From the IMG/VR virus record IMGVR_UViG_3300046557_000204, positions 1 through 45,979 of that record: DNA of 45,979 bases. One strand, given 5' to 3'. Every line of letters begins with the position of its first letter. Positions within the stretch are counted from its first letter, which is position 1. Position numbers and translations under genes: made by a program. This stretch comes from a virus. The notes beneath the pieces were generated by a model. That model ran no database searches, had not been told where the DNA came from, and worked only from the letters and a program-made list of their open reading frames with translations. Positions 2,864 to 45,979 of the stretch are shown piece by piece.

Positions 2864-5155
2864 TCAATCCTTGCGGTAACGCTTGCCTCGCCAGCCGGAA
2901 GCCGTCAAAGGCAAGCCGGCGGCCCACTCCGGAAGCTCGCAAATCAGTTCCTCGAATTCCATTATGTTTCCGAAACCATGCGGGACTTCTGTGATAATCT
3001 CGTCATGGACATGGCCGATAACAGGGTAACCCGCAGCTTCAGCCTGCTTTATGCCGTGCGCCAGCAGATCGCGGGCAATAGCCTGGACAATGTTTTCGAA
3101 GGCCAGACCGCCATATAGCCCGAAACGCTCCCACTTCTTCGTGACGGAGTTGACGCCGACGGCCGTTACGGATGATTTGGCATAATTATGCGCGCCTTCC
3201 TTGCCGCGCATGATCTGGACGCGGCCCTTGCGCTCGGCGATCTCGGCTTCCTCGACGCCCATCGTCTCGGAAACGTCCGACCATTTACCGTCATCGTCTT
3301 TGGTCCTGCACCAGACCTGTTGCTTGACGCGCGGATTGCCGTACGCCAGGCAGCGCCCGGAGGGCAGTCTGCACCAGAGGAAATTGCGCGAGACGAGGTA
3401 GTCGACCTTAAGCACCCGCACCACGCTTCCGGGGTTGTCGACCGCCTGGCGCATGGCGTCCTCGAGCGCGCCCCATGAAGCCGATATCGCCGGGTGTGTC
3501 GCCCGCCAACCGATCTTGACGATCTCCGCCGCCAGGAACTCTTCCCGGCTCAACAGCTTCGTGATCGGCTCTTTCCGCTTGCAGGCGTTGTCGTAGCGCT
3601 TCAGCGCTCTGTCGCGGCGTTCGGTATCAGCGGCCTCCCACACGATCGGGAACAGCGGCGCCAGCTTCATCGAATAGTTTCGTGCCATAGACCGAAACGC
3701 GCCGGGCCCGCCTTGGTACTGGAGCGACAATTCGGACACCTTGCCGACTTGCCGGCGTGGGTCTTTCTTCGTCAGCTTGTCAACAGAAGTGTTGAAAATG
3801 CCCGCGGCGGCGCGGCGGTACAGATCCGGCAGGTCCGGATCGGCCATGATGTCGAACATGGCCTGGACCTTCCAGGCCTCGTCGGCGAACCACGCAGCGA
3901 CCGCGCCTTCGATACCGGAATAGTCGGCCACCAACAGGTCATGACCAGCCGCCGCCCACAGGAAGCCGCGGATAGCGTCGGACAGAAGCCACAACGTCTT
4001 GCCAAGCTCGTCGCCGTACATGAAGCGCAGCAGCTCCGGGCTCTCCGTGCGGATGAATTGAAACAGTATATCCATGCGCAGATGGGCGTCGCCGAAGGCC
4101 CCTCTTGGCCTAGGAAGATTGTGCAGCTGCGCGCCGACGGACGACCAGCGGCCCGTACCGGCGGCGCAGAACAGGAAAGCCCCGCGAATACGACCGTCGG
4201 CGCCGGCGCGCTGCATGAAGGCTGACAGCTTGGCGACAGACGTCTTGGCGGCTTCCTGGCGAATGAGAATGGCGCGGCGGACCTTGGCGGGCAGATCGTC
4301 GAATTCGAGCAGCTCTTCGATCTCGGCCTTGGCGGCCGAGCCCATGTCGACGCCCTGGCTCTGCACCCACTCCACCAGCTTGCCCGGTTCGGAGCATTTC
4401 TTCACATAGCCGCCGGTCGCGTCGCGCATTTCGATGTCGAGCAGCCGCTTGGCTTTCTCCGCCAGCTTGATTGCAGCAGTGGCCGATGTGCGATCGAGCC
4501 TGACGCCGCGGCGGTTTATCTTCTGGTCAATAAGCCACAAGTCTTGTTCGTAGTCCGACAGGGGCACGATCCGCGCAGCGGCGGCCTCTTCCGTCTCAAC
4601 GTCAAGCCGACAGTAGGCTATGAACTTTGCGAAGTCCTCCGGGTGGTCTTCCGGCTCGTTCCAGTAAAGCCCTTCGGGCTCGACGCCGCGTGGCTTGCGC
4701 GGGATGGAGAACTTGCGGATCAGCCGCATGCCTTCCTTGTCCTTCTGGACAGGGAGATCCAGCGCGGCGGCCAGATCGCCAAGCGCGCGCGGCAGCGACA
4801 TGGCCGCAGCGGCAGCGGCGGTATCTAGGTAGTTCTCATGTTTCGGGCGCGGCCATCCGAAGCGGTCAGCCATCAGGTCGAAGGCAAGATTTTCGAACTG
4901 CGCGTTGTAGGCTACGATCGTCGCGCCGTCCTCGATCGCCTGAGCGATATCAGCCGGACAAGGCTGATCGTATAGCCACATCTGGAGGGGGCCGTCGTCG
5001 AGCCGATAGGCCATCATCAGGACTTTGGTATCCGGATGCTCGAAATAGACGTAGGCGCCCCGCTTCTTCAGATCGACCGGAGAGCGCGTCTCTACGTCGG
5101 CATGGATCGATCGGTAGGGTCTCAATGGACTACCGCCCAAATGGCGAGCGCCCAA
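2864..5155 (-). CDS. Family-A DNA polymerase with 3'-5' exonuclease domain
   Basis: The 763-residue protein is the phage replicative polymerase. Exo I is HADVETRS (D20, E22), Exo II lies near YNAQFENLAFD (about 85-100), and Exo III carries a CRLDVETEE stretch. The palm motifs follow. Motif A is ADYSGIEGAVAAW (D about 411; the usual DYSQIELR has Gly at two places), motif B is RRQVGKVSELSLQY (about 465-478), and motif C is HVHDEI (H717-D718-E719). There is no 5'-3' nuclease domain, as in T7-type enzymes. The ATG at 5155 lies inside the preceding 27-aa gene. A TTG at 5125 overlaps that gene's TGA and would give MRPYRSIHADVE, so it is a serious alternative start. It is the last gene of the early operon. 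Confidence 0.95.
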   Translation of the reverse strand: MGARHLGGSPLRPYRSIHADVETRSPVDLKKRGAYVYFEHPDTKVLMMAYRLDDGPLQMWLYDQPCPADIAQAIEDGATIVAYNAQFENLAFDLMADRFGWPRPKHENYLDTAAAAAAMSLPRALGDLAAALDLPVQKDKEGMRLIRKFSIPRKPRGVEPEGLYWNEPEDHPEDFAKFIAYCRLDVETEEAAAARIVPLSDYEQDLWLIDQKINRRGVRLDRTSATAAIKLAEKAKRLLDIEMRDATGGYVKKCSEPGKLVEWVQSQGVDMGSAAKAEIEELLEFDDLPAKVRRAILIRQEAAKTSVAKLSAFMQRAGADGRIRGAFLFCAAGTGRWSSVGAQLHNLPRPRGAFGDAHLRMDILFQFIRTESPELLRFMYGDELGKTLWLLSDAIRGFLWAAAGHDLLVADYSGIEGAVAAWFADEAWKVQAMFDIMADPDLPDLYRRAAAGIFNTSVDKLTKKDPRRQVGKVSELSLQYQGGPGAFRSMARNYSMKLAPLFPIVWEAADTERRDRALKRYDNACKRKEPITKLLSREEFLAAEIVKIGWRATHPAISASWGALEDAMRQAVDNPGSVVRVLKVDYLVSRNFLWCRLPSGRCLAYGNPRVKQQVWCRTKDDDGKWSDVSETMGVEEAEIAERKGRVQIMRGKEGAHNYAKSSVTAVGVNSVTKKWERFGLYGGLAFENIVQAIARDLLAHGIKQAEAAGYPVIGHVHDEIITEVPHGFGNIMEFEELICELPEWAAGLPLTASGWRGKRYRKD

Positions 5156-5205
5156 GATGCCAGGCAGAATATGATCAGGTAGCCGATGATGCGACGACGG
5201 GTCAT
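5122..5205 (-). CDS. 27-aa single-pass membrane peptide
   Basis: The ATG at 5205 overlaps the methyltransferase stop (GGATGAC), and AAGGA lies 7 bases upstream inside the methyltransferase's last codons. The peptide begins [12 protein letters not shown] and ends AIWAVVH: three arginines, then about 20 hydrophobic residues, a positive-inside membrane anchor. Its TGA overlaps a possible TTG start of the polymerase. Function unknown. Its position in a chain of coupled starts supports it as translated. Confidence 0.6.
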   Translation of the reverse strand: MTRRRIIGYLIIFCLASWALAIWAVVH

Positions 5206-6437
5206 CCGAAAATTCCTTCTTGTTGGTCGGTGTTGGTCGTGAAGTCAGACAGCGTGGTCAGCCGAATATGTCGATCGGCGTCGATAGCTTTGGTTTCGAG
5301 ATACGCTTCGATGAAGCTCGTTGCCGCTTCGGCATTGATTGCATTGCCATAGCCGCGCAATCGTCCCACTCTGGCGGGAGCCCCATGAGCCAGCGGGAAT
5401 GTGCCGGGTTCAACTGGCCGCCACTTTCCATCCCGGCAGAAGAGCCAGTCAGGATCTCGCCAGAAGCCGTTCGTCGGGCAGGTTCGTTCGCTAGCACCGA
5501 GAATGCCGCCACGTCTAGGCTGTTGTTCCATTGCTTGCGCTCGGCTTCGCTCTCCGCTCCAGCTAGCGTCCCGGTCCCGTTCTTGCCGTCCTGCGCTCTG
5601 GACGTCGGCCACCCCGACAACATCGCGACTGTCGCCCTGCTGCTGTCGTTGTTGCCCGCCGCGTTGTTCCCATTCTGCGCTGGCGTACCGGCCATAGGTG
5701 TCGACCAGCCCGCCAAGTTCGCCTGGCGTGGAAGCTGGTCGAAGCGATCTCGATCCGTGTCCGAGCGCTTCTTGATGTCCGCCCCGCTGTCCTTCCAGTC
5801 CCGCGTCGTCGTCGTCGTCGTCCAGCCGGTCAATTTCGCTTCCAGTACCAGACAGGCGCAGCCGTGTTTCGTGCCGTGCAGCTCTTTCTGTGTTTCCGAC
5901 CGGCCCGATACGTCGTGAGCTTGCGGAGTTGTCCAGCCTTTCTCCGAGCCACCAAAGCCGTTGTCTGATGTGGGGCGCGCCGAAGCCCGCAGAGCAGGTA
6001 TCGATCGCCCCGAAGGCGTAGCCCGTTCCTTCCAGGTCAGCTTGTACAAGGTCGAGCCAACCAAGTCCGTCTTTGCTCGCAACCTGTTCGCCAGCGACGA
6101 CTGGAGGGCCGCACTCTGCGATGAGATAATGGAAGTGCGGCCATAAGTGCCGCTCGTCATCAAACCCGCCTCCTTTGCCTGCCGCGCTGAAAGGCTGGCA
6201 GGGGCAAGAGCCGGTCCAGATCGGGCGGTCGTCGCTCCATCCGGCTCGGCGGAGAGCGTAGGACCAGACACCGATACCGGCGAAGAAGTGGCATTGCGTG
6301 TAGGATCGAAGGTCGTCTGGTCGGACATCGACAATGCTCCTGGTGTCAACGTCGCCGGGCGCGATATGGCCGGCGGAAATGAGTGCGCGCAGCCAAGCCG
6401 CAGCGAATGGATCGATTTCGTTGTAGTAAGCCGTCAT
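5202..6437 (-). CDS. C5-cytosine DNA methyltransferase
   Basis: The 411-residue enzyme has the expected motif order. Motif I is FFAGIG at about 51-56 (AdoMet binding), motif IV is GSCPCQPFS with catalytic C80, and a motif VI variant is GEQV at 116-119, where ENV is usual. Motif VIII is IRQRLW at about 158-162 and motif X is GYGNAI at 362-367. Residues about 170-330, where target recognition belongs, are low-complexity, with a run of six Asp and many Gln/Arg. This is also where a second gene is read in another frame (5258-6328). It would methylate phage DNA, probably to avoid host restriction. The start overlaps the stop of the upstream gene (ATGA). It ends QQEGIFG, one of the shared C-terminal tails. 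Confidence 0.93.
5258..6328 (-). CDS. Overlapping gene nested in the methyltransferase gene
   Basis: A 356-residue ORF runs in another minus-strand frame for almost the whole methyltransferase gene. The ATG at 6328 (MSDQTTFDP) has AGGAG 9 bases upstream. The protein carries [40 protein letters not shown] and [19 protein letters not shown]. These stretches recur in phage proteins annotated as hypothetical or, wrongly, as methyltransferase, so I think the product is real and conserved. The spaced W-[ST]-TP segments suggest a repeated DNA- or protein-binding element. It ends TPIDIFG, the same tail type as its host gene. Function unknown; a specificity or accessory subunit of the methyltransferase is possible. 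Confidence 0.72.
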
Positions 6438-6634
6438 CCGAATATGTCCTCGCCAGAGGCTGTGAAGTCAGACAGCGCGGCCAGTGCTGCGGCGTCCGGG
6501 TCGTCGGCGATATGGATCTGGTAGCCTAGCCGGTCGCGCGTCGTGGCGGCCTGCCAGCGCCCGTCCTGCGCGCGGTAAAGGGTGAAGCCTTGGAGGCCGC
6601 TAGAGGCGGCCTCCCGGAGTAGATCGGCGATCAT
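6434..6634 (-). CDS. Hypothetical protein, 66 aa, IFG tail
   Basis: The best start is the ATG at 6634, which overlaps the TGA of the upstream 25-aa gene (ATGA). An upstream in-frame start at 6703 would read through that small gene. The protein begins MIADLLREAASSGLQGF, has a short beta-like centre (YRAQDGRWQAATT) and ends with an acidic stretch and GEDIFG. Its own TGA overlaps the methyltransferase ATG. No family recognised. Position and tail suggest a replication- or methylation-associated small factor. Confidence 0.7.
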   Translation of the reverse strand: MIADLLREAASSGLQGFTLYRAQDGRWQAATTRDRLGYQIHIADDPDAAALAALSDFTASGEDIFG

Positions 6635-6708
6635 CTGAACAGTACCCAGATGAAGCCGAGCGTCACCAACGAGCCTATTGCGTCGTGAACTACGGTTGGC
6701 CAATCCAT
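6631..6708 (-). CDS. 25-aa membrane peptide
   Basis: The ATG (6708-6706) shares one base with the exonuclease stop (TGATG), and its TGA overlaps the next ATG (ATGA). The peptide begins [13 protein letters not shown] and continues with LVTLGFIWVLF, one short transmembrane segment. Overlap at both ends is strong evidence that ribosomes pass through this frame. It resembles the other tiny membrane peptide at 5122-5205 in size and context. Role unknown. Confidence 0.55.
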   Translation of the reverse strand: MDWPTVVHDAIGSLVTLGFIWVLFR

Positions 6709-7271
6709 CAGTCGAAGATCCCCGCTGCTACGGGCTTTGTCGTGCCCGGTTTGCGCCCCTTGGCGACAGCGGCGGCCACCAGTGCGACCTGGTGCAGCGT
6801 ATCGTCGAGAGCGTTGTGGTGGACGCGCGTGCGCATCAGATCGCGGGTGTCGAAGTTGAACACGTCGTAGATCGTGCGGGTGTCGCGGACGTTGTAGAAA
6901 CGCCATGGCGTTTCCTTGCCCAAGGCGCGGTAAGCCGCCTCGAGGACAGGCGGATCGAAGTTGGCGCCCTGGCTCCAAATAGTCGGAGCGTTCTGCGCCA
7001 GCAGCCATGAAGCGAACTGCTCCAGAGCTACGTTCAGTGGCTGCGGATCAACCAGGAAGGCTTTCTGCGCGGCGGGCGATTGCTCGCCCCACCACTTTTC
7101 AGTCTTCGGATCGACGACGAGGCCGGCGGACAAGCAGGACTGCTTGTCGACGTTCACGTAGAACGTCTCGCCGATTTCGCCGGTCAACTCGAATGTCACT
7201 GCGCCAATTGACCGGATGACGCTGCCCGGAGACGTGCCGAACGTCTCTATGTCGAGCATCGTATTTTTCAT
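6708..7271 (-). CDS. DEDDh-type 3'-5' exonuclease (DnaQ/RNase T fold)
   Basis: The 187-residue protein has the DEDDh acidic cluster. MLDIETFG gives D7 and E9, GANFDPPVL gives D106, and [12 protein letters not shown] gives H151/152 and D156/157. The N-terminal stretch [13 protein letters not shown] is typical of the phage branch near RNase T and Rv2179c. It would trim 3' ends of DNA or RNA during replication or recombination. The start overlaps the GapR-like stop (ATGA). It ends AAGIFD, another member of the shared tail set. The substrate cannot be told from sequence. Confidence 0.88.
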
Positions 7272-7570
7272 CCGAAGATACCGATCGCATGGCCATAGGT
7301 GTCGCGAAGCTGCTCGCGCTCTTCGCGCTCTTGAGCGTCCAGCTTGCGTAGCTTCAGCATTTCATTGAGCGTGGTCATGTCGTAGCCCCGCCCCTTGGCC
7401 TCGCCTTTGACGTCTTTTATGTCGTCGGCGATCGTGCGCTTCTCTTCCTCCAGGCGTTCGATGCGCTCGATAAACGAGAGCAATTCCTTGCCCGTTTCGT
7501 TGTTCGGGCGCGGCGCTTCGTCGGACGTGCTAGCGCTGGCGATTTCCATCGGGTCGAATTCTTCTGGCAT
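7268..7570 (-). CDS. GapR/DUF2312-like DNA-binding protein
   Basis: Residues about 28-96 match the DUF2312 (GapR) family: a coiled-coil start [18 protein letters not shown], then [20 protein letters not shown] and a final charged helix. GapR of alphaproteobacteria encircles overtwisted DNA ahead of forks and stimulates topoisomerases. A phage copy could do this at phage forks or compete with the host protein. The family is almost restricted to alphaproteobacteria and their phages, which points to the host. The N-terminal 25 residues are acidic and disordered. GGAG precedes the ATG. It ends AIGIFG, which overlaps the exonuclease start; the tail lies beyond the normal family end. Confidence 0.9.
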
Positions 7571-7648
7571 TGGTCAGTCTCCATTGTCGGTAGGGGTTCA
7601 TGACGTTGGCCGTTGTAGGCCAACGTCATCATACAAAACAGACAAGAC

Positions 7649-8278
7649 TTAGCTGAAAAGACCAGCCGCGCCGTCGCCGGATTTTGTGCTGTCGGGAGCA
7701 TCGCCAGCGTCGGCGATCTTCTCGAAATGATCGTCCGGGTTACCACCACCGCCAGAGCCGCCGAGAACTTCGTCGCCCTGCGCGACCTTAGACACCTGGA
7801 TCATGGAGACGCCAAAGGAGACACCTTTACCTTTTGCGTCGTTTTCCCAAGTGAAGGCGTTGACGATAGCGTAGCCCTGCGAGCCAGATGGGAATTCGTC
7901 CTTACTGGCGATTGGCAGAACCTGCTTGTTTACCAGCTTCGGGCGGTAAGCTTCGCCGGAGATAAGCCGCAGGAAGGTCGTACCGGGGAAGCCCTTGTGT
8001 GGCTCGCCGGTCTTCTTCGATTTGCCCTGCGGGCCATCACCATCAAGGAACGGGCTGTGGATAAGCTTGTCCTTGATCATCTGTCGGGCCTTGTCGCCCC
8101 ACTCTTCAACCGCCGCGTCTACGGCGAGTTTCTGGAGGCTGGAGATATCGGCGCCTTTGGCGAACAAGGCCGACAGGCCCCACTGCTTCTTGCCGCTTTC
8201 CTGCGTCTGGAGTTCGAACACGCCGTTGGTGAAAGCGAATGTCGCCAGCGGGGTTTTTGCATCGGCACTACGAGCCAT
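7649..8278 (-). CDS. Single-stranded DNA-binding protein, DUF2815 family
   Basis: The 209-residue protein matches the DUF2815 pattern: ATFAFTNGVFELQTQESGK, a central KLIHSPFLDGDG, and an OB-fold core ending in VNAFTWEN and GVSFGVSMIQVSK. DUF2815 proteins are T7 gp2.5-like SSBs found beside DUF2800 and PolA genes, as here. The last 40 residues are Gly- and Asp-rich and disordered, and finish GDGAAGLFS. SSB tails normally carry a terminal docking peptide, so the resemblance of GLFS to the tails of other proteins here matters. GGAAG lies 7 bases before the ATG. Confidence 0.9.
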   Translation of the reverse strand: MARSADAKTPLATFAFTNGVFELQTQESGKKQWGLSALFAKGADISSLQKLAVDAAVEEWGDKARQMIKDKLIHSPFLDGDGPQGKSKKTGEPHKGFPGTTFLRLISGEAYRPKLVNKQVLPIASKDEFPSGSQGYAIVNAFTWENDAKGKGVSFGVSMIQVSKVAQGDEVLGGSGGGGNPDDHFEKIADAGDAPDSTKSGDGAAGLFS

Positions 8279-8291
8279 TTTAGTCTTCCTT

Positions 8292-9560
8292 TTAGTCGAG
8301 AACGGAGAAGTGTTGATTTACAGAAGGCGCTACCGTCTTCCGCGTTGTCTTGTCGCTCCTGACGAGCGAAGTGCCGGTGCGGGGGGTTTCAACCCAATCC
8401 GCTATGACGGCCTTGTTCTTGGTGCCGAGTGCCTTTTCGACCTGAGCGGGCGAAGCAACCTTGCGTGGAGCCCATGCCGCGTCTGGGTCTTTGCCTGCGA
8501 TCAGCAAAGCCTTCTCGACCACGAGTGGATCGACGTTGTCCTGCCACTTGCGGCGCCCGATCTTGTCGACAAGCACGTAGTTCGGTATCTCGACGCCGGC
8601 TTCTGCCTGCCCGTGCCAATAGGCACGAACCGCGTTTATCCAACCATCGATCATGTCGAGGCTGTCGAGGATCATTGCCGCCTCTTCAGGCGATTTCTGA
8701 TCCGGCGTGTTGGCCAGTCTTGGCTGTTGTAGGTCGTCAAACCAGACACCAGCCGTATCGAGAGCCTTCCGTTCCAGTGCGGGGCACGAGCCCTTTGCCT
8801 TGCAGAAGGTGCAGTGATCTCCCGCCAACAGATACTCTTTTTCCCATAGGGTCGAGTTCATCGACGGACGGTCCAGCATCGCGGCTTTCGCCCGGTGCAT
8901 GGCCTGGAGCAGATCGGACGTCCACTCCATCAGATCGGCGACGTGGAAGTCCTCAGAGCGTATCCGGCCGCTCTGGTGGGGCGCTCGCGGCTGGACGATC
9001 GTTACCTTGATCGTCTTCACGGCAAGCCCCGGATTGGCCAGCATGGCGCCGAGTGCATAGGTCCGCAGTTGCGGGTTGCCCTTGACCTCGACGACGTAGC
9101 CCCGCCCGCCTTTCAGATCGATGACCTCGAGCTGCTTTTCGGTTGGCGAGTAGATGACCGCATCGGCAGTCCCGCCCGCCTGGAACGGTGGCTTCAGATC
9201 GGCGAGAGAGAATTTCTGTTCGATCTGGAGCAACGACGCCGGGTTAACTTTCGGCGGCGCGGCGGCAACGGTCGCATGACGCACGTAGTTGACATATTCC
9301 ATGGCCGTGTCGGCCATTTCCTCGTCAACTTCGAATTCGTGCGTCTTGCCCTTTTCGGTCGTTCCGATGAAGTCCGACGCGTCGCAACCGGCGCGCAAGC
9401 ACTTCTCGGCGATCTGGTGGCAACACGTTCCCCAATCGGCGGCTTCGTTGGTTTTGTCAGCGTAGCCGTCTGTCAGGGTAAGCGCGCCGGAGCATAGCCA
9501 GTTCCGTTCGGTGGAACTGGCCGACCAGGTGGCGTGATCTCGTACGCCGTGGTCTACCAT
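8292..9560 (-). CDS. DUF2800 family PD-(D/E)XK nuclease-like protein
   Basis: The 422-residue protein has the DUF2800 layout. An N-terminal WSASSTERNWLCSGA is followed by WGTCCHQIAEKCL. The nuclease core has GGTADAVIY (Asp), LEVIDLKGG (Asp...Lys) and a QLRTYALGA helix. CTFCKAKGSCPALE follows at about 255, and the cysteines resemble the iron-sulphur clamp of AddB/Cas4-type nucleases. It is probably a recombination or end-processing nuclease that works with the adjacent SSB, the SNF2 helicase and RusA. It overlaps the upstream MazG-like gene by 7 bases. The tail ends HFSVLD and does not fit the shared motif. Confidence 0.88.
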   Translation of the reverse strand: MVDHGVRDHATWSASSTERNWLCSGALTLTDGYADKTNEAADWGTCCHQIAEKCLRAGCDASDFIGTTEKGKTHEFEVDEEMADTAMEYVNYVRHATVAAAPPKVNPASLLQIEQKFSLADLKPPFQAGGTADAVIYSPTEKQLEVIDLKGGRGYVVEVKGNPQLRTYALGAMLANPGLAVKTIKVTIVQPRAPHQSGRIRSEDFHVADLMEWTSDLLQAMHRAKAAMLDRPSMNSTLWEKEYLLAGDHCTFCKAKGSCPALERKALDTAGVWFDDLQQPRLANTPDQKSPEEAAMILDSLDMIDGWINAVRAYWHGQAEAGVEIPNYVLVDKIGRRKWQDNVDPLVVEKALLIAGKDPDAAWAPRKVASPAQVEKALGTKNKAVIADWVETPRTGTSLVRSDKTTRKTVAPSVNQHFSVLD

Positions 9561-9904
9561 TTCTTGCCATTCGCGGCGAGCCGCGCCTCCTTTTTATGGT
9601 CAGCCCGGTTGGCGTTGAAAGCGCGCTTTTCCGTTACGGCGCCCTCCAGATCGTAGCCAAACGCGCCGGCGTAATCGAAGATACGGATCAAGGCATCAGC
9701 AAGTTCGACTTCCGCCAGCTTCCGGTGAGGAAGCTTGTCGTCCATCAAGTCCTTGCGTTCACCTTCCATGCACTCGGAAATTTCCGAGTGGATCAAGCAA
9801 AGCAGCTCGCCTTTATTACGGTCGAGCCGCGCCCCGGTCGCCGGGTCGTGCCACCAATGCTGATTGGCAGCGTGGCATTCGTCACGGTAGCCGTTCAGGT
9901 CCAT
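9554..9904 (-). CDS. MazG-like nucleotide pyrophosphohydrolase
   Basis: The 116-residue, mostly helical protein has the metal-binding pattern of the MazG/all-alpha NTP-PPase group: HSEISECMEGERKD (E41, E44, E48) and LAEVELADALIRI (E65, E67, D70). These enzymes hydrolyse nucleoside triphosphates to monophosphate and pyrophosphate. In phages they are thought to clean nucleotide pools or lower ppGpp. The ATG shares one base with the upstream TAA (TAATG), so it is coupled. It is followed with overlap by the DUF2800 gene. Confidence 0.85.
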   Translation of the reverse strand: MDLNGYRDECHAANQHWWHDPATGARLDRNKGELLCLIHSEISECMEGERKDLMDDKLPHRKLAEVELADALIRIFDYAGAFGYDLEGAVTEKRAFNANRADHKKEARLAANGKKW

Positions 9905-10578
9905 TACGCGCCGTACCTAGCTTCGGACTGTGCAGCCTTGGCGAAGACAGCGATTGCCTTCTTGATGTGGTCCTGCCCGGCTGCACCGACGAGCGAGAGT
10001 TTCCAGGCGGCTTCGCCGGCGGGCGGCTTGCCGAGCGCGTCGGCGAACATTTTGGCTCCGTCTTCCTGCGTGGCTGGAATGCCGAATTTGGTAACGTAAG
10101 CCGACATGGCTTCCTTCAGGTCTTCCGTGGTCAGCGGCGCGTCGGGCTCGCGCTCCGCTTCGACTTCAGCCTGTTCGTCGGCCTCGTCCTGCGCTTGCGT
10201 CTCCGCGTCGTCTTCAGGAGCGACACGGCTTTCGCCCGTGCTGATACCCTGCGTCGTGGTTCCAGCGGCTTCGTCCTCGGCGATCTCCGCCTTGGTGCGA
10301 CGAGCCTTGCCGGGTGCAGGCTGGCCACGAACACGCGACCCGGTGACTTCAGGCGGGGCGGCATCCGAAGGCGCGTTGCCGTCCGGATCGACAACGGCGT
10401 CGACCGACGCTTGCTTCACGACGGAGCCGATGGAGCCGCCGGTCAAGGCCGTCTGCCCAAGCATGTTGCGCCGCATTTCGGCCATTGGCGGGAGCGAGCC
10501 GTTGATGGCCGCCATAAGGGCCGCTAAGCCCGTTGCCTCTTCTTTTGATAGATAGGCGGTGTCGAAGTTGATATTCAT
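9904..10578 (-). CDS. Hypothetical acidic protein with disordered centre
   Basis: I place the start at the ATG 10578 (MNINFDTAYLSKEEA), which overlaps the TGA of the helicase (ATGA), instead of an upstream alternative at 10605. The 224-residue protein has a helical N-terminus and a long disordered Ala/Pro/Glu/Asp-rich middle (about 80-150). A folded C-terminal part follows, with TTEDLKEAMSAYVTKFG and EAAWKLSLVGAAGQDHIKKAI. The C-terminal piece resembles small domains in phage recombination proteins, but I cannot name it. It lies between helicase and MazG-like genes, so a replication or recombination accessory is likely. Confidence 0.75.
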   Translation of the reverse strand: MNINFDTAYLSKEEATGLAALMAAINGSLPPMAEMRRNMLGQTALTGGSIGSVVKQASVDAVVDPDGNAPSDAAPPEVTGSRVRGQPAPGKARRTKAEIAEDEAAGTTTQGISTGESRVAPEDDAETQAQDEADEQAEVEAEREPDAPLTTEDLKEAMSAYVTKFGIPATQEDGAKMFADALGKPPAGEAAWKLSLVGAAGQDHIKKAIAVFAKAAQSEARYGA

Positions 10579-11924
10579 GCTAATACTTCCCTGATTGCGG
10601 TCCACTTGCGGAGCAAGATTTCCTGTAGCGCTTCGTCTATACTACCCTCAAGAACAGCAACGCGGACGAAGGCTTGGCGCGTTGCTTTGAGGTTGGTTAC
10701 ACGCTTCGACATTTGTGACATATCGGACGGCGTGAAGCTTGTTTCGACAAACCATAGATTTGCCGATGAACTTAGATCGATCGCTTCGCCGGCAGCTTTG
10801 ATCTGCGCCAGGAACACCCGGATCGAGGGGTCAGATAGAAAGCGTTGCTCCGCTTCGTCTCTTTTGTTGGCCGGCGTCGATCCGTCAATACCTACAACAC
10901 CGAACGTCGAAAGCCCGTCTTTGAGGACTTGCCCCACGTCCTTGTGCCAGTACGCCAGCACGATCTTGTCGAGCCCGCATTCGAATTCTTCCTTGACGGC
11001 GGCGACCACGGCATGGGCCTTGATCTCGCCCGTCAGCCGGCGCAGAGGGCCAAGCTCCATCTCGAGCGCCTTGGTATCCCCGGCCTCGGCGGCAGCGAGC
11101 ACGAGCTTGGCGTCGAGCTTGTCTTCGACTTCCCGGCGCATGGCGGGCGATACGGCCAGCGGCAACGTCTCGTAGATCGGCGCCCGGATACCGACGTCCT
11201 GTTGCGTCCGGCGGAGCATGAAATCGCCAATCCGGCCCTTCAGCTCTTCCAGGTTCCGACCGCCGACAACGACGGGGATCTTGCGGAAATTGGAAATCTT
11301 CTTCATCCGGACGACGCAATACCGGTGCAGGAAGTCCTGGTATTTGGTCACGTCAGGCACATCGGACGTCGCGTGCAGCTTGTGAGCCGCCATGGCGCGT
11401 AACATAGGATACAGATCGTTCGGCGCGTTCGGGATGGGTGTTCCTGTCAGGCACCAGGCCTTGTAACCAGCGGCCCGGATCAAGGCCGTGCTGTCGTTGA
11501 CCAGCTGGCCGCCGAGCGTGAAGTCGCCATAAGCCGACTGCGTGCGCTTCGTTTCGATGTTCTTGGCGTAATGGCTTTCGTCGAAGACGACGCGATCCCA
11601 TTTTCGGCCGAGAAGCTGTGACCGTATCTTTGGCTCGGTTATGCCACCCCACCCGACGATGACGCATGTTCCGTTGATCTTGTCCGTGCCTTTGGCGACG
11701 ACCTGCGTTAATCGCTGGTATGGCGACCATTCCTTCATGGCGCGGCGCCAGACCGGGCGTCCGGAGGCTGTCGTCACGATCAAAATGCGTTCTTCCAGAT
11801 TGTCGTCCATCGCCATGATGGCGGCACCGGTCTTCCCACATCGTGGGTCGTCTGCCAGCAAGGCAGTATCGCGCTCTGCTAAGAACTTCGCTCCGGCTAT
11901 CTGTGTTGGGAATGGCGTTGGCAC
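10575..11924 (-). CDS. SNF2-type superfamily 2 helicase/translocase
   Basis: The 449-residue protein starts with FPTQIAGAKFLAER (Q-motif-like) and the Walker A variant DDPRCGKT, with K31 and T32. Motif II is FDESH at 114-118. The second RecA-like domain includes IDGSTPANKRDEAEQRF and IKAAGEAIDL (motif V), and SQMSKRVTNLKATR near the end (motif VI). This compact form without extra domains is the phage DEAD/SNF2 helicase found near SSB and resolvase genes. It would translocate on duplex DNA or remodel forks and recombination intermediates. Cysteine replaces the usual Gly or Leu in the Walker loop. Confidence 0.88.
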   Translation of the reverse strand: MPTPFPTQIAGAKFLAERDTALLADDPRCGKTGAAIMAMDDNLEERILIVTTASGRPVWRRAMKEWSPYQRLTQVVAKGTDKINGTCVIVGWGGITEPKIRSQLLGRKWDRVVFDESHYAKNIETKRTQSAYGDFTLGGQLVNDSTALIRAAGYKAWCLTGTPIPNAPNDLYPMLRAMAAHKLHATSDVPDVTKYQDFLHRYCVVRMKKISNFRKIPVVVGGRNLEELKGRIGDFMLRRTQQDVGIRAPIYETLPLAVSPAMRREVEDKLDAKLVLAAAEAGDTKALEMELGPLRRLTGEIKAHAVVAAVKEEFECGLDKIVLAYWHKDVGQVLKDGLSTFGVVGIDGSTPANKRDEAEQRFLSDPSIRVFLAQIKAAGEAIDLSSSANLWFVETSFTPSDMSQMSKRVTNLKATRQAFVRVAVLEGSIDEALQEILLRKWTAIREVLA

Positions 11925-12017
11925 GTTGGAAGTTCCTTCAGGAAAGCAGGTAAGTCAGGAAAGCAGGATTATCGGAACGTCGGTTTGTATGCCGTTGTCT
12001 GTCGCAGCATCATACAA

Positions 12018-12191
12018 TTACGACGTGGCGTCAACCGCTGTTTTTGCGATAGCGTCAACCATGTAACGGATCATCGACGCGGCAACGGGCAGGCTCATAG
12101 TGAACGACTTGATTTTTCCGTCGACAACCATCGTCAACAGCAGCTTGCCGTTGTCAGGCTTGGCGGTAGCCAACTGGATCGCTTCGCTCAT
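12018..12191 (-). CDS. Small hypothetical protein, 57 aa
   Basis: The ATG at 12191 overlaps the RusA stop (GGATGAG), and GGA lies within RusA's final codons. The protein reads MSEAIQLATAKPDNGKLLLT, then a beta-hairpin-like VVDGKIKSFTMSL and a helix AASMIRYMVDAI. No family recognised; a small alpha/beta or dimerising fold is plausible. The 93-bp gap after it contains TTGACG and TATGAT elements and may hold a promoter for the helicase, though the spacing is not ideal. Confidence 0.65.
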   Translation of the reverse strand: MSEAIQLATAKPDNGKLLLTMVVDGKIKSFTMSLPVAASMIRYMVDAIAKTAVDATS

Positions 12192-12607
12192 CCGAAAATT
12201 CCCTCTCCGATTTGGCGGACCTTCACCCATATTCCGGGCTTGTCGCCATACTGTTTGTGAATGCTGGTCGTCACGATCTGGCAGTCATCGATCCACACAA
12301 CGAGGTTGAGCGCGTCGAGCATCTTCATGATGTTGTCCAGGTCCGGCTTCTTTGTCGGCCATTCCGTGCCCGCTCTAGCCGCTTCCTGGCGCTTCTTTGG
12401 CCATGAACCGGTGATAGCGACAACGATCTTCAAGTCGACGTGCAGCGGGCCGTCTAGCGGCGCTCTGTCACCCATTACCTGCGCGGCGGCGTACTTCAGT
12501 CCGGCTTCATAATCCCGTGTTTTCTGAGGCGTATAGAAATGACCGTCCTTTGTGCCTCTAGGGCGCTCCTTTCCACGGGGAGCGCCCAATAGGACGATCT
12601 CGATCAC
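12188..12607 (-). CDS. rusA: RusA-type Holliday junction resolvase
   Basis: The 139-residue protein begins IEIVLLGAPRGKERPR and contains KKPDLDNIMKMLDAL followed by VVWIDDCQIV. This is the D-x-D-N and D-D-x-Q signature of RusA (D89, D91, D107/108). RusA dimers cut four-way junctions symmetrically and resolve replication or recombination intermediates before packaging. It overlaps both neighbours by 4 bases. The last residues, GEGIFG, extend past the normal family end and belong to the shared tail set. The DNA of this tail matches that of the methyltransferase over 12 bases (GGAATTTTCGGA). Confidence 0.93.
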   Translation of the reverse strand: MIEIVLLGAPRGKERPRGTKDGHFYTPQKTRDYEAGLKYAAAQVMGDRAPLDGPLHVDLKIVVAITGSWPKKRQEAARAGTEWPTKKPDLDNIMKMLDALNLVVWIDDCQIVTTSIHKQYGDKPGIWVKVRQIGEGIFG

Positions 12608-12861
12608 GCGACTGCCTCGACGGCGTGGCGGTACTGATCGACGGTCTGCATATTGCGAAGACAGGCCGCGCGTAAACGCGACCAGTCAGTCATGTCGGCC
12701 AAAAGTTCCAACTCTTCGTACAGTTCGGTTAACGCCAAACTCGAGAAATTGTCCGGCGTTGCGTTGCAGATGTCGGAAACGTCTTTCGACAAACGCCACC
12801 ACATTCGCAACTCTGCCCGCATAGTTTTTTGGTCGCCATCAACTCTATTCGAAGATGTCAT
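12604..12861 (-). CDS. Hypothetical helical protein, 85 aa
   Basis: The stop overlaps the RusA ATG. The ATG at 12861 overlaps the end of the upstream regulator gene by 17 bases and has AGGA about 12 bases upstream. An internal ATG at 12822 (MRAELRMWW) is possible. The sequence is helical and acidic: RLSKDVSDICNAT, LTELYEELELLADM, RLRAACLRNMQTVDQY. No family recognised. The overlap with regulator and resolvase makes it an early gene. Confidence 0.65.
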   Translation of the reverse strand: MTSSNRVDGDQKTMRAELRMWWRLSKDVSDICNATPDNFSSLALTELYEELELLADMTDWSRLRAACLRNMQTVDQYRHAVEAVA

Positions 12862-13090
12862 TACTAACAGTTTCCTTCCCCATATATCCGAGCAGACTTA
12901 TAGGCGCTCCATTTTGGCACTCCAGGATCAACAAGAGGATAGGCCACCATTCGCCCGGTATCGCGCCCCGCGAAAACCATTTTCGGACAGTGTCTCTCGT
13001 TGGAACCTCGACATTGAAGCAGGAAGACAGCCCGACAACGGCGTCCGGAGTTGCGAAATTCTCCTCCAGAAATTGCGTCGTTTTAAACAA
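12845..13090 (-). CDS. Putative Cro-like HTH regulator, first gene of the leftward early operon
   Basis: The 81-residue ORF starts with TTG at 13090, with AGAGG 8 bases upstream. There is no ATG before the conserved part. PTRDTVRKWFSRGAIPGEWW looks like the recognition region of small Cro/YdaS-type proteins. Its place, first in the leftward operon and divergent from the repressor across two operator candidates, fits Cro. It ends SNDIFE, a member of the shared tail set. The alternative is a non-regulatory early protein, since the HTH match is by eye and short. Confidence 0.6.
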   Translation of the reverse strand: MFKTTQFLEENFATPDAVVGLSSCFNVEVPTRDTVRKWFSRGAIPGEWWPILLLILECQNGAPISLLGYMGKETVSNDIFE

Positions 13091-25131: not shown

Positions 25132-25611
25132 TTACTTGAACAGGCCGTCGTCGATATCGCCGATGCCGTCGTGCTCTTCGGCTGGATCTTCGACGTGCTC
25201 GTCGACTGGCGCGTCGGTCGGCTCGGCCGCAGCAACCGGCACGGGTTCCTCGGTCAGCTCTTCGGCGATGGGCTTCGGCGCAGCGCGTGTTTCAGTCTTG
25301 AAGAAGAATTCATCAAGCTCCAGGTCGGCGAAATTGACGAACAGCGGCGCGGCGGCGCCAGGGAAGAGCGCCTCGACGACTGGAGCCGCGAACTGACCGT
25401 TCGGCTGGCTGCGACCGTAGATCTCGAGCAATCGAGCCCGTTCGGCCTTGCTGGTGCGCTTGATATCTTCCGCGTTGACGGCGATATCGGTTACGCCGTC
25501 ATAGCTGTGGATCTCGCGCAGAACGGCGACTTCCGACGGCGTGACGTTGTACTTCTGAATAGTGTTCCCGTCGTCGCCGCCGAGCTTCAAGGTGATTGTT
25601 GCGGTCTGCAT
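25132..25611 (-). CDS. Hypothetical protein with acidic tail, 159 aa, LFK end
   Basis: Residues 1-105 look folded: MQTATITLKLGGDDGN, VTPSEVAVLREIHSYDGV and AERARLLEIYG, which is a pattern common to late phage operons between capsid and adaptor genes. Residues about 115-150 are Glu/Pro/Ala-rich and disordered, ending GDIDDGLFK. That end fits the x-[IL]-F-x tail although this is a late gene. No function assigned. It follows an attenuating hairpin at 25634-25659, so it begins the lower-expressed tail part of the operon. Confidence 0.7.
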   Translation of the reverse strand: MQTATITLKLGGDDGNTIQKYNVTPSEVAVLREIHSYDGVTDIAVNAEDIKRTSKAERARLLEIYGRSQPNGQFAAPVVEALFPGAAAPLFVNFADLELDEFFFKTETRAAPKPIAEELTEEPVPVAAAEPTDAPVDEHVEDPAEEHDGIGDIDDGLFK

Positions 25612-37754: not shown

Positions 37755-38219
37755 TCATTGAAATATATCATCATCGTTGCGCACTACTTGCGCAATCTCG
37801 ATGTGATCGACGACCTTTGCCCGGTCAGATGCTACCCGCTCTAGCTCGGCGATCGCCCTTGCTAGTTCCTCGCTTGTCATCTCGTGCGCTTCCTTGCCCT
37901 GCCCCTCTTCCGAGGCGCCTAACGTCCTGTCAAATATGACTTTTGAGGCCTGGACGCGCGCGCCAGCAGGGGCTTTGCTATCGACGACGATCGACACCAG
38001 GCAGCGCACGGCCGCCGGCAGCGCCTCGTTGAATAGCCTGGCGAGCTGTTGCGACCTGATTTCAGCCTGAATTGCAGGCCTCGACAGAGCGTCGGACGAG
38101 CGCTGGTATGGGTGCAAATAGCCTGCCGCCGTGGCCGCATAGGCCTTATCGCCCGTATTTGCGTACCGTTCAGCGAAAACCTTCTCTTTGCTCGTCATCC
38201 TGCCACCCTTGATCGGCAT
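37755..38219 (-). CDS. Terminase small subunit-like protein, IFQ tail
   Basis: The start is the ATG at 38219 (MPIKGGRMTSKEKVFAE), with GGGAAGG just before it. The longer frame to 38390 crosses a divergent promoter. The 154-residue protein has the TerS HTH pattern: EKVFAERYANTGDKAYAATAAGY and LSRPAIQAEIRSQQLARLF. A body for oligomerisation and an acidic end, RNDDDIFQ, follow. TerS recognises the pac or cos site and activates TerL. It lies about 5 kb from TerL and is divergent from a plus-strand operon. The end fits the shared tail. Confidence 0.82.
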   Translation of the reverse strand: MPIKGGRMTSKEKVFAERYANTGDKAYAATAAGYLHPYQRSSDALSRPAIQAEIRSQQLARLFNEALPAAVRCLVSIVVDSKAPAGARVQASKVIFDRTLGASEEGQGKEAHEMTSEELARAIAELERVASDRAKVVDHIEIAQVVRNDDDIFQ

Positions 38220-38288
38220 GACCTTCCCGTCCTTCGTTTCGGTTTCGTAACAATCCACTAGCAAGAATTTAGCATCCTCGCAAACTTT

Positions 38289-38332
38289 TGTCTGTTTTGT
38301 CTGTTGACGATGTAGGAAGAAAGCGGTATACA
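38289..38332 (+). promoter_or_regulatory. Near-consensus rightward promoter with TGTCTGTT element
   Basis: TTGACG (38304-38309), a 17-bp spacer and TATACA (38327-38332) precede the small-gene operon. The -35 overlaps a TGTCTGTTTTGTCTGTTGAC element (38289-38308). Its reverse complement recurs around the -35 of the leftward promoter at 45156-45140, so the two early operons may share a regulator. Confidence 0.75.
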
Positions 38333-38364
38333 AGTGACATACAAACACAACATAGGAGCCTGAC

Positions 38365-38535
38365 ATGACGAACATCGAAACCGCTCTCAACCTCGCAGCC
38401 TACCACGATAGCCGCGCTGCCCACCACGCTGCAAACGGTCGCAGCGAGCGCGCTACGGCAAACGCCTTGCTCGCCAATGCCTACCGCAAGCAAGCCGACG
38501 AGCGCGTCACGCTCAACAGCCAGCGCAAGTTTTAA
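38365..38535 (+). CDS. Small basic-acidic helical protein, 56 aa
   Basis: The ATG is preceded by ATAGGAGCCTGAC. The peptide starts MTNIETALNLAAYHDSRAA and is a His/Ala/Arg-rich helix throughout, ending VTLNSQRKF. It is first behind a strong promoter, so it should be abundant early. No family recognised. The high Ala and charge content could suit a small nucleic-acid- or protein-binding inhibitor. Confidence 0.65.
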   Translation: MTNIETALNLAAYHDSRAAHHAANGRSERATANALLANAYRKQADERVTLNSQRKF

Positions 38536-44661: not shown

Positions 44662-44889
44662 TCAGTCGAAGATATTCGGCTCTGGTTCTGCCGGCGCTTC
44701 TGCTTCCGGCGGGAAGGCTTGCGCCAACACGTCGACCTCAGACGCTCCGGTGAAGGAATAAACTTGCGTGTCTGGTGTGAAGATCTCCAGGGTTACAGGC
44801 TCGCCAGGGCCGTAGGCGTACACGGCGAAACCTAGATCCGGGTTGGCGGCGCGGGCGTCATCAAGCGAACAAATCGATTTGGTTGTCAT
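44662..44889 (-). CDS. Hypothetical acidic protein, 75 aa, IFD tail
   Basis: The start ([17 protein letters not shown]) overlaps the RHH gene by 29 bases. The folded part has DLGFAVYAYGPGEPVTLEIF and QVYSFTGASEVDVLAQAF. The end is a Pro/Glu/Ala linker and EPNIFD, so a flexible arm carries the shared tail. No family recognised. Confidence 0.65.
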   Translation of the reverse strand: MTTKSICSLDDARAANPDLGFAVYAYGPGEPVTLEIFTPDTQVYSFTGASEVDVLAQAFPPEAEAPAEPEPNIFD

Positions 44890-45082
44890 CGGCTTCGTCC
44901 TCCCGTGGCTTGTTGATCATGTCGCGCAGCTCGCGGTCGGTCTTGCCCATATGCTCGTGCAAGATCAGTTCGACGAGCTTGTTGCGGGAGATGTGCTGCC
45001 GCCCGGCTTTCGTCGTTAATGTCTTGAGCAGCGTGTTCGGGAGCCGGAACGCTGCGATGCTCTTGATCGGCCGCTTGGCCAT
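44861..45082 (-). CDS. Ribbon-helix-helix regulator with QIDLF tail
   Basis: The 73-residue protein begins [26 protein letters not shown] is the DNA-binding ribbon, followed by helices [17 protein letters not shown] and [11 protein letters not shown], as in Arc/MetJ-type regulators. An acidic linker (PREDEADDN) leads to QIDLFA at the end. QIDLF matches the QL(S/D)LF beta-clamp binding consensus at all but one conservative position. GGAG precedes the ATG. It is the first gene of the operon and may autoregulate it. Confidence 0.8.
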
Positions 45083-45184: not shown

Positions 45185-45979
45185 ATGACCAAAGCTAAAA
45201 AGCCAGTCGAGCAGGAAACGATCATCGCGATAAAGGGCTTTAACAAGGATCTTACCTGCACGCCGAACGGCGTGAAGTTTCAATACGAGGTCGACAATAC
45301 CTATAAGCAGGACGGGGTTATTAAGGCCTGCCGGACTGGCTTTCATGCGATCGAGGGCCACCCGCTGGAGGTGTTCGGCTACTACGCGCCCGCCGGGTCC
45401 GTATTCCATGAGGTCGAGCTGAAAGGCCCATTCAGCCGAGAAAACAGCGACAGCAAGATCGCCGCGGCTGAAATCACGATCAAGGCAGAGTTGAAAATTC
45501 CGGAGCTAGTAGCCCGCGTCGTTCGTTGGGTGATGGATCGCGCCACCACTGAAGAGGGCGGCCACGCCACGGGCGACCAAGGCGCAGCGTCCGCCACGGG
45601 CAACCAAGGCGCAGCGTCCGCCACGGGCAACCAAGGCGCAGCGTCCGCCACGGGCAACCAAGGCGCAGCGTCCGCCACGGGCGACCAAGGCGCAGCGTCC
45701 GCCACGGGCAACCAAGGCGCAGCGTCCGCCACGGGCGACCAAGGCGCAGCGTCCGCCACGGGCAACCAAGGCGCAGCGTCCGCCACGGGCAACCGAGGCG
45801 CAGCGTCCGCCACGGGCGACCAAGGCGCAGCGTCCGCCACGGGCAACCGAGGCGCAGCGTCCGCCACGGGCAACCGAGGCGCAGCGTCCGCCACGGGCTA
45901 CCAAGGCGCAGCGTCCGCCACGGGCAACCGAGGCGCAGCGTCCGCCACGGGCAACCGAGGCGCAGCGTCCGCCACGGGC
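45185..45979 (+). CDS. N-terminal part of DUF7666-like repeat protein (continues at 128-346)
   Basis: GAGGACCACAAA precedes the ATG. Residues about 10-115 form the N-terminal domain: [40 protein letters not shown] and [14 protein letters not shown], which I recall as DUF7666. A TG(F)HA-x-(E/P)LxVF(G)YY pattern is typical. From 45584 the nine-residue AASATGxxG repeat runs to the contig end. After merging, the protein continues at base 128 for about 337 residues in all. It is first in its plus-strand operon, upstream of the J-domain gene. No signal peptide or membrane anchor is seen. Confidence 0.88.
45584..45979 (+). repeat. Tandem 27-bp coding repeats, right part
   Basis: Fourteen full units and one partial unit of 27 bp encode AASATG followed by NQG, DQG, NRG or YQG. 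A degenerate unit (GHATGDQG) precedes them at 45557-45583. The last 127 bases duplicate bases 1-127. Apart from codons 7 and 8 the units are identical, so short reads cannot fix their number. Confidence 0.95.
45853..45979. repeat. Right copy of the 127-bp exact terminal direct repeat
   Basis: Identical to 1-127. It marks the circularisation overlap. One copy should be dropped when the genome is made circular. Confidence 0.85.

Follow-up and report, generated by a model that had tools for sequence, protein, structure and literature searches.

Phages related to the one analyzed here carry a shared C-terminal tag on many unrelated proteins. We identified it in IMG/VR virus record IMGVR_UViG_3300046557_000204, analyzed over its full 45,979 bases (the window), where 13 open reading frames (ORFs), all on the minus strand, have C termini of the form [GDN]-[IL]-F-x-stop. 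An earlier reading of the DNA without database searches (the sequence-only reading) had listed these 13 ends, every one of which was present, and had proposed a docking peptide that brings early proteins to one hub. We favor, with a probability of about 0.6, an explanation in which [GDSN]-[I/V/L/A]-F-[small or acidic]-COOH would be a phage-private docking tag, read by a partner encoded in the phage replication module, most likely the family A DNA polymerase (PolA).

Of ~66 window genes counted, 13 are tagged, while ~0.4 would be expected (P = 1.3e-16) from how often [ILV]F occurs at other distances from the C terminus (0.58-0.61% per gene; the same background was used for Rhizobium phage RHph_N65, below). 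The earlier estimate of well under one chance occurrence was therefore sound. A logo of 237 tags revealed that position -5 is rich in Glu, -4 is nearly always Gly, Asp, Ser, or Asn, -3 is Val, Ile, Leu, or Ala, -2 is Phe, and -1 is Asp, Gly, Glu, Ala, or Ser, behind a stretch that is net acidic. As judged by domain matches, most window tags lie outside conserved domains (RusA, exonuclease, methyltransferase). The sequence-only reading had placed the tag beyond the usual domain end in both RusA and the GapR-like protein. This holds for RusA, whose Pfam match covers residues 8-131 of 139, and fails for the GapR-like protein, whose match extends to residue 97 of 100, such that the tag takes the place of the usual end and does not lengthen it. 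Describing the tagged set as early proteins was also too narrow, since the small terminase subunit (TerS) and a protein encoded downstream of the capsid gene carry the tag, in 17/21 and 14/21 relatives, respectively.

We asked how widely the tag is conserved using ~140 loci around related family A polymerases, gathered from viral contigs and bacterial genomes, together with the whole records of 25 phages. Genes in these relatives were called with a simple purpose-made finder, and some calls are wrong; for RHph_N65, we used the GenBank annotation. Counting in the phage and its relatives against other offsets bore out the sequence-only reading. Among 1161 genes of 21 tagged genomes, [ILV]F occurred at offset 1 from the C terminus in 156 genes, compared with 2 at offset 0, 2 at offset 2, and ~7 elsewhere (P ~1e-154), so the excess is confined to offset 1. 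In RHph_N65, 14 of 69 coding sequences have ends of the tag type (P = 6e-18), among them RusA, the single-stranded DNA-binding protein (SSB), a protein in the GapR slot, the exonuclease, the Prim-Pol helicase (primpol), TerS, and others. Near the methyltransferase position, RHph_N65 instead encodes a non-homologous PAPS reductase, and this protein is also tagged (KDIFK).

Across 22 genomes, 13 unrelated families were tagged almost completely. Tagging was without exception for primpol, RusA, the exonuclease, and the families of the ORFs at 44662 and 6434 (counts in Table 1), as well as for three sets of methyltransferases (10/10, 10/10, and 9/9; 29/29 together), and was frequent for SSB, the GapR-like protein, TerS, and the 25132 family. 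Other proteins were never tagged: polymerase (0/128), the unannotated 9904 protein (0/32), integrase (0/23), and repressor (0/21); the DUF2800 exonuclease was tagged in 2/97 cases. When we looked for an [ILV]F excess at the C termini of Gram-positive and most distant relatives, none was seen. We conclude with high confidence that the tag is real and that selection acts on it as a set.

One way to dismiss these ends is to attribute them to compositional bias, errors in gene calling, or a mobile DNA repeat located where genes end, and the wrong calls among the relatives' genes speak for such an artefact. However, the offset control refutes it, and the published annotation of RHph_N65 and the untagged relatives, which show no enrichment, also speak against it. 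The Ile or Leu of the window tails is encoded in six ways (ATT, ATA, ATC, CTT, CTG, and TTG), as expected from the earlier argument that varying codons exclude a DNA repeat. In addition, two window ORFs, 5202-6437 and 5258-6349, overlap on the same strand in different frames, and each is tagged at its own stop, which excludes a repeat or composition effect. The second frame was found in ~20 relatives, and tagged phages tag it (17 pairs, such as QGSIFE/PSIFD and RQDVFG/QNVFG); its homologues in three untagged phages (L055, L075, and L083) end without a tag. An artefact is thus a negligible prospect. We also considered that ORF 5258 might be a shadow ORF and rejected this, as it matches PHROG 31772/1008 and its homologues are tagged in tagged phages. 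The second methyltransferase frame forms a long dual-coding stretch, with both overlapping genes kept in ~20 relatives.

The residue before the Phe behaves as a property of the phage rather than of the protein. Within a phage, position -3 (Ile, Val, Leu, or Ala) is uniform over ~10 unrelated families, and it differs among phages: the window has IIIIIIIIIL, G014 has eleven Val, G026 has ten Val and one Leu, G021 has AAAAAVV, and G017 has LLLLL. When -3 residues were shuffled among phages within each family, a permutation that ignores phylogeny, 240±11 same-residue pairs were obtained, compared with 466 observed (p = 2e-4, the limit of 5000 shuffles). Independent drift in ten families would not yield such agreement within a phage. 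On the polymerase tree, tag class changed 19 times with mixed classes counted and 11-14 times in simpler counts; thus, whole tag sets switched repeatedly. We rejected the idea that GC content or codon bias accounts for Ile versus Val. Although GC and Ile fraction are correlated (-0.45), phages of equal GC can differ fully: the window (GC.588) is nearly all Ile and G014 (GC.589) is all Val. The SSB tail is an exception to switching, as the main clade keeps LF (Leu at -3) even where the other tags of the phage have Val or Ala. This constancy suggests a separate constraint on SSB, such as self-binding.

More distant clades have other tails. In a clade with ~37% polymerase identity (G033, G034, and relatives), tails read [DE]-W-[DGN], on six proteins per genome in G033 and G034. 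These include SSB (GDDWG), primpol (DEWGG), and, in G034, a DNA methyltransferase (SAEWD). Trp occupied position -2 in 17 of 211 genes, compared with a mean of ~3 at other positions. In G041, DFLD/EDFD ends SSB, a TerS-like protein, and a small protein. Three proteins of L095 have a DPF tail (PADPFSED, ASPDPFDD, and TVPDPFTD) and L079/L080 have shared tails; DPF in these loci is a possible further code. An automatic per-locus search for other aromatic tails returned nothing below p 1e-3 except the main tag, and the DFLD and DPF codes are therefore each based on few proteins. We also noted that the 9904-like open frames of G033 (~8.6 kb) and G034 (~21.3 kb) and the SSBs contain several internal Trp motifs (GDDWDD, DEWDE, and NDWDD) in disordered-looking linkers, as if the Trp-code phages had multivalent tag carriers.

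The docking part of the sequence-only reading has held up, since the tag is conserved, sits on non-homologous genes, and switches in concert at -3; most of the hubs it named fared poorly, as described below. A docking peptide for one partner is well supported by these sequence comparisons. We infer binding, and propose that the tag, on a short acidic or flexible tail, would gather DNA-acting proteins on one reader: SSB, primase-helicase, resolvase, exonuclease, the GapR-like protein, methyltransferases, the small terminase, and several small proteins. The Phe would enter a deep pocket and the -3 side chain an adjoining, size-selective pocket, while the fixed one-residue spacing to the C terminus suggests that the carboxylate may also be read. 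Were the reader pocket to change, all tags of that phage would change along with it.

A different function for such an end would be a degron or another C-terminal processing signal that limits protein lifetime. The tag is strictly C-terminal in this clade and is appended to unrelated proteins, as such a signal might be. However, SSB and primase-helicase, whose activity spans replication, retain the tag, which also switches in concert and is dependent on the presence of the replication module. We know of no degron of this form and consider this explanation very improbable.

If the docking tag is read by a single partner, where is that partner encoded? As a counterpart to the polymerase-based sampling, we searched records using primpol. 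The 45.9-kb record G045 and the 34-kb fragment G050 have primpol and lack PolA, SSB, DUF2800, 9904, and SNF2. Their primpols are untagged, that of G045 ending RVTQEGGK. In G045, 0 of 44 called genes have a [GDSN][ILVA]Fx end; a weak TerS-like open frame, outside the called ends, terminates in RGVFG. G050 has one such end (NGSAFV), which is not on primpol. In contrast, the six checked primpol records that are 40 kb or longer and hold a full-length PolA all have tags. Together, these comparisons indicate that the reader is probably phage-encoded and part of the PolA-SSB-DUF2800-9904-SNF2 module. We have moderate confidence that a phage-encoded reader explains the tag and low confidence as to which module protein it would be.

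Two hubs put forward earlier fit these data poorly. The Prim-Pol helicase is not the hub because primpol itself bears the tag, and competition with the SSB tip is weakened because SSB stays GLF while other tags of the same phage go to Val or Ala. PolA, within the polymerase hub also named earlier, is our best guess for the reader and the least certain step of the proposal. It is the sole module member never tagged in any clade and has a precedent in phage T7, which together make it a possible hub. An AlphaFold2 model of PolA (pLDDT 92) has a Pol I fold.

Several points weigh against this assignment or the model around it. Because relatives were sampled mostly via polymerase, the presence of PolA in 22/22 tagged genomes is by construction, and the permutation supporting concerted switching is blind to phylogeny. 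Gene-tree parsimony on the same 35 phages gave 7 class changes for 9904, 9 for SSB, 10 each for DUF2800 and SNF2, and 11 for polymerase, so that polymerase fits the tag class slightly less well than the other four; nearest-neighbor and matrix tests favored SSB and SNF2, not PolA. A column scan for a reader pocket in ~30 protein families named no pocket, as structural controls scored equally. Finally, in a few relatives the motif is shifted inward by one to several residues (GGLFGE, DDLFGRL), and so a free C terminus may not be essential everywhere.

The same docking tag might instead be read by another protein of the module: 9904, the DUF2800 exonuclease, the SNF2 helicase, or the core of SSB. 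The 9904 protein is present in 22/22 tagged genomes and 1/5 others, its end is never tagged in this clade, and its gene tree requires fewer class changes than those of the other four core genes. Matrix regression had one significant term, SNF2 (p = 0.002), and the best nearest-neighbor predictor was SSB. Against these candidates, the genes differ little from one another and the tests conflict, with tree parsimony at odds with nearest-neighbor, Mantel, and matrix-regression results. SNF2 is missing from the tagged genome G035, and SSB is itself tagged. The 9904 homologues of the Trp clade hold internal Trp motifs and 9904 of G035 holds the SSB tail sequence GDFFG, both of which fit a ligand better than a reader. 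We therefore regard a reader elsewhere in the module as rather unlikely. Considered on presence alone, 9904 as a tag-specific hub was also weakened by its weak homologues in untagged relatives. Foldseek with the AlphaFold2 model of 9904 (C-terminal domain pLDDT ~96) found no solved relative, and Pfam and PHROG scans of the family gave nothing usable. Conserved segments of the protein include a RGRPRRTKEEIAEDEAA-like stretch and ISTGEERV...AQDAADEAAE, and its C-terminal domain, helical and compact, occurs in duplicate in many relatives.

The sequence-only reading also proposed the host sliding clamp as hub, in which case the tag would be a degenerate bacterial beta-clamp-binding motif recruiting phage proteins to host DnaN. 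The positions -4, -3, and -2 of the tag, [GDSN]-[LIV]-F, match the last three positions (3-5) of QL[S/D]LF, which is often C-terminal. In Pol II (QLGLF) and UmuC (QLNLF), Gly and Asn occur at the center of this motif, where small side chains are usual (PMC3716654). A few tags do have the Gln (QEGIF, QEDIF). However, Gln was found at the required position (-6) in 11/237 tags, 1.4x background, and we rejected the canonical motif as a family assignment for lack of this enrichment. The tag further differs in having Ile, Val, or Ala at -3. Switching of this residue together with the phage, and Trp in another clade, would misfit a host pocket that must keep its host partners, and the module-less G045 lacks the end among its called genes. 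The clamp is thus disfavored, and this alternative is improbable.

If the proposed docking tag is correct, replication, recombination, DNA modification, and packaging would be wired to one hub. The tag would then help to predict a role at the replisome for phage proteins that have no annotation, and the concerted one-residue switching would serve as a natural experiment for finding the reader and the pocket it uses. A further suggestion is that genes new to a phage must gain the local tag before they work, which would be a barrier to phage mosaicism. A broader proposal, to which we give even odds, is that the tag is a switchable phage-private C-terminal address code for a co-evolving reader, with lineage-specific versions (GIFG, GVFG, GAFA, DLFD, EWD, DFLD, and DPF) that would filter gene exchange between lineages.

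Table 1. Tagged genes of the window and candidate readers of the tag
Feature	Position	Strand	Matches	C terminus	Relatives and remarks
C5-cytosine DNA methyltransferase, 411 aa	5202..6437	-	PF00145; phrog_363 (1-384/411)	QEGIFG at 5205-5222	tagged in all 9 relatives with the family
Overlapping second frame, methyltransferase-type family	5258..6349	-	phrog_31772, phrog_1008	PIDIFG at 5261-5278	~20 homologues
Small protein, function not assigned	6434..6703	-		GEDIFG	17/17 tagged
Rv2179c-like 3'-5' exonuclease	6708..7271	-	PF16473 (3-167/187)	AAGIFD	9/9 tagged
GapR-like DNA-binding protein	7268..7570	-	PF10073	AIGIFG	18/21 tagged
Gp2.5/Enc34-type SSB	7649..8278	-	phrog_112, PF10991	AAGLFS	tagged in 21/22 tagged genomes
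RusA Holliday-junction resolvase	12188..12607	-	PF05866 (8-131/139)	GEGIFG, past domain end	19/19 tagged
Small protein, 81 aa	12845..13090	-		SNDIFE	RHph_N65 counterpart in same place, 80 aa, ends DDIFT
Protein encoded downstream of capsid gene	25132..25611	-		DDGLFK, behind acidic linker	14/21 tagged
Small terminase subunit (TerS)	37755..38390	-	weak phrog_51 and PF03592	DDDIFQ	17/21 tagged
Prim-Pol / AAA_25 helicase, 717 aa	39975..42128	-	PF09250, PF13481	NTGIFE	20/20 tagged
75-aa protein with Pro/Glu linker	44662..44889	-		EPNIFD	21/21 tagged
RHH-like small protein	44861..45082	-		QIDLFA	RHph_N65 relative ends TIDLFA
Family A DNA polymerase (PolA)	2864..5155	-	phrog_17, PF00476	RGKRYRKD, untagged	leading reader candidate
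DUF2800 exonuclease	8292..9560	-	PF10926		2/97 tagged; rival reader candidate
9904 protein, unannotated	9904..10605	-	acidic linker and helical C-terminal domain		in 22/22 tagged genomes; rival reader candidate
SNF2-type helicase	10575..11924	-	PF00176	untagged in this clade	weaker reader candidate

At the edges of the window, positions 1-50 and 45930-45979 hold the same short repeat (GAGGCGCAGCGTCCGCCACGGGC...), which may be an assembly edge.

Tail docking is already known for a few replication proteins in T7, T4, and bacterial SSB, while here the tag is on ~1/5 of phage genes. Literature searches, which covered open-licence papers, turned up no account of the present tag. In T7, the sequences we inspected end ADEDGDF (gp2.5) and SNDTDF (gp4), and gp4 tails bind the gp5 DNA polymerase, which belongs to family A (PMC8835902). 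The window resembles T7 in that SSB and primase-helicase share a tail with Phe, acidic residues lie upstream in the tag logo, and the tagged phages encode a family A polymerase without the tail. The SSB is moreover of the gp2.5/Enc34 family; acidic C-terminal tails are known for Enc34 SSBs, and the analogy with T7 gp2.5 implicates these tails in binding partners (PMC5686142). Unlike the situation here, only gp2.5 and gp4 have the D-x-F end among 16 T7 proteins checked (gp4.2 and gp5.5 end in Phe that is not of this type), whereas the window has 13 tagged ORFs, including methyltransferases, RusA, the GapR-like protein, and TerS. The Phe is also penultimate rather than terminal and is preceded by a size-specific Ile, Val, Leu, or Ala.

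In T4, gp43, gp55, and gp33 dock on the clamp gp45, and the ends of gp43 (SLDFLFG) and gp55 (SLDFLYEAND) are close to the LDFLD tails of G041. The T4 polymerase, however, carries the clamp-binding tail, while the polymerase here has no tag. No sliding clamp was found among the window proteins that we searched against PHROGs and Pfam, a search that did not scan every ORF and left 9904 and some small proteins unannotated. The C-terminal tip of bacterial SSB (DDDIPF) likewise has an acidic tail with Ile and Phe near the C terminus and is a hub for many partners. There, one protein shows its tip to many readers, whereas here many proteins, with a penultimate Phe, would presumably address one reader. 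The system in the window would work like these dockings and differs from them in its scale, its penultimate Phe, its untagged polymerase, and its switchable letter.

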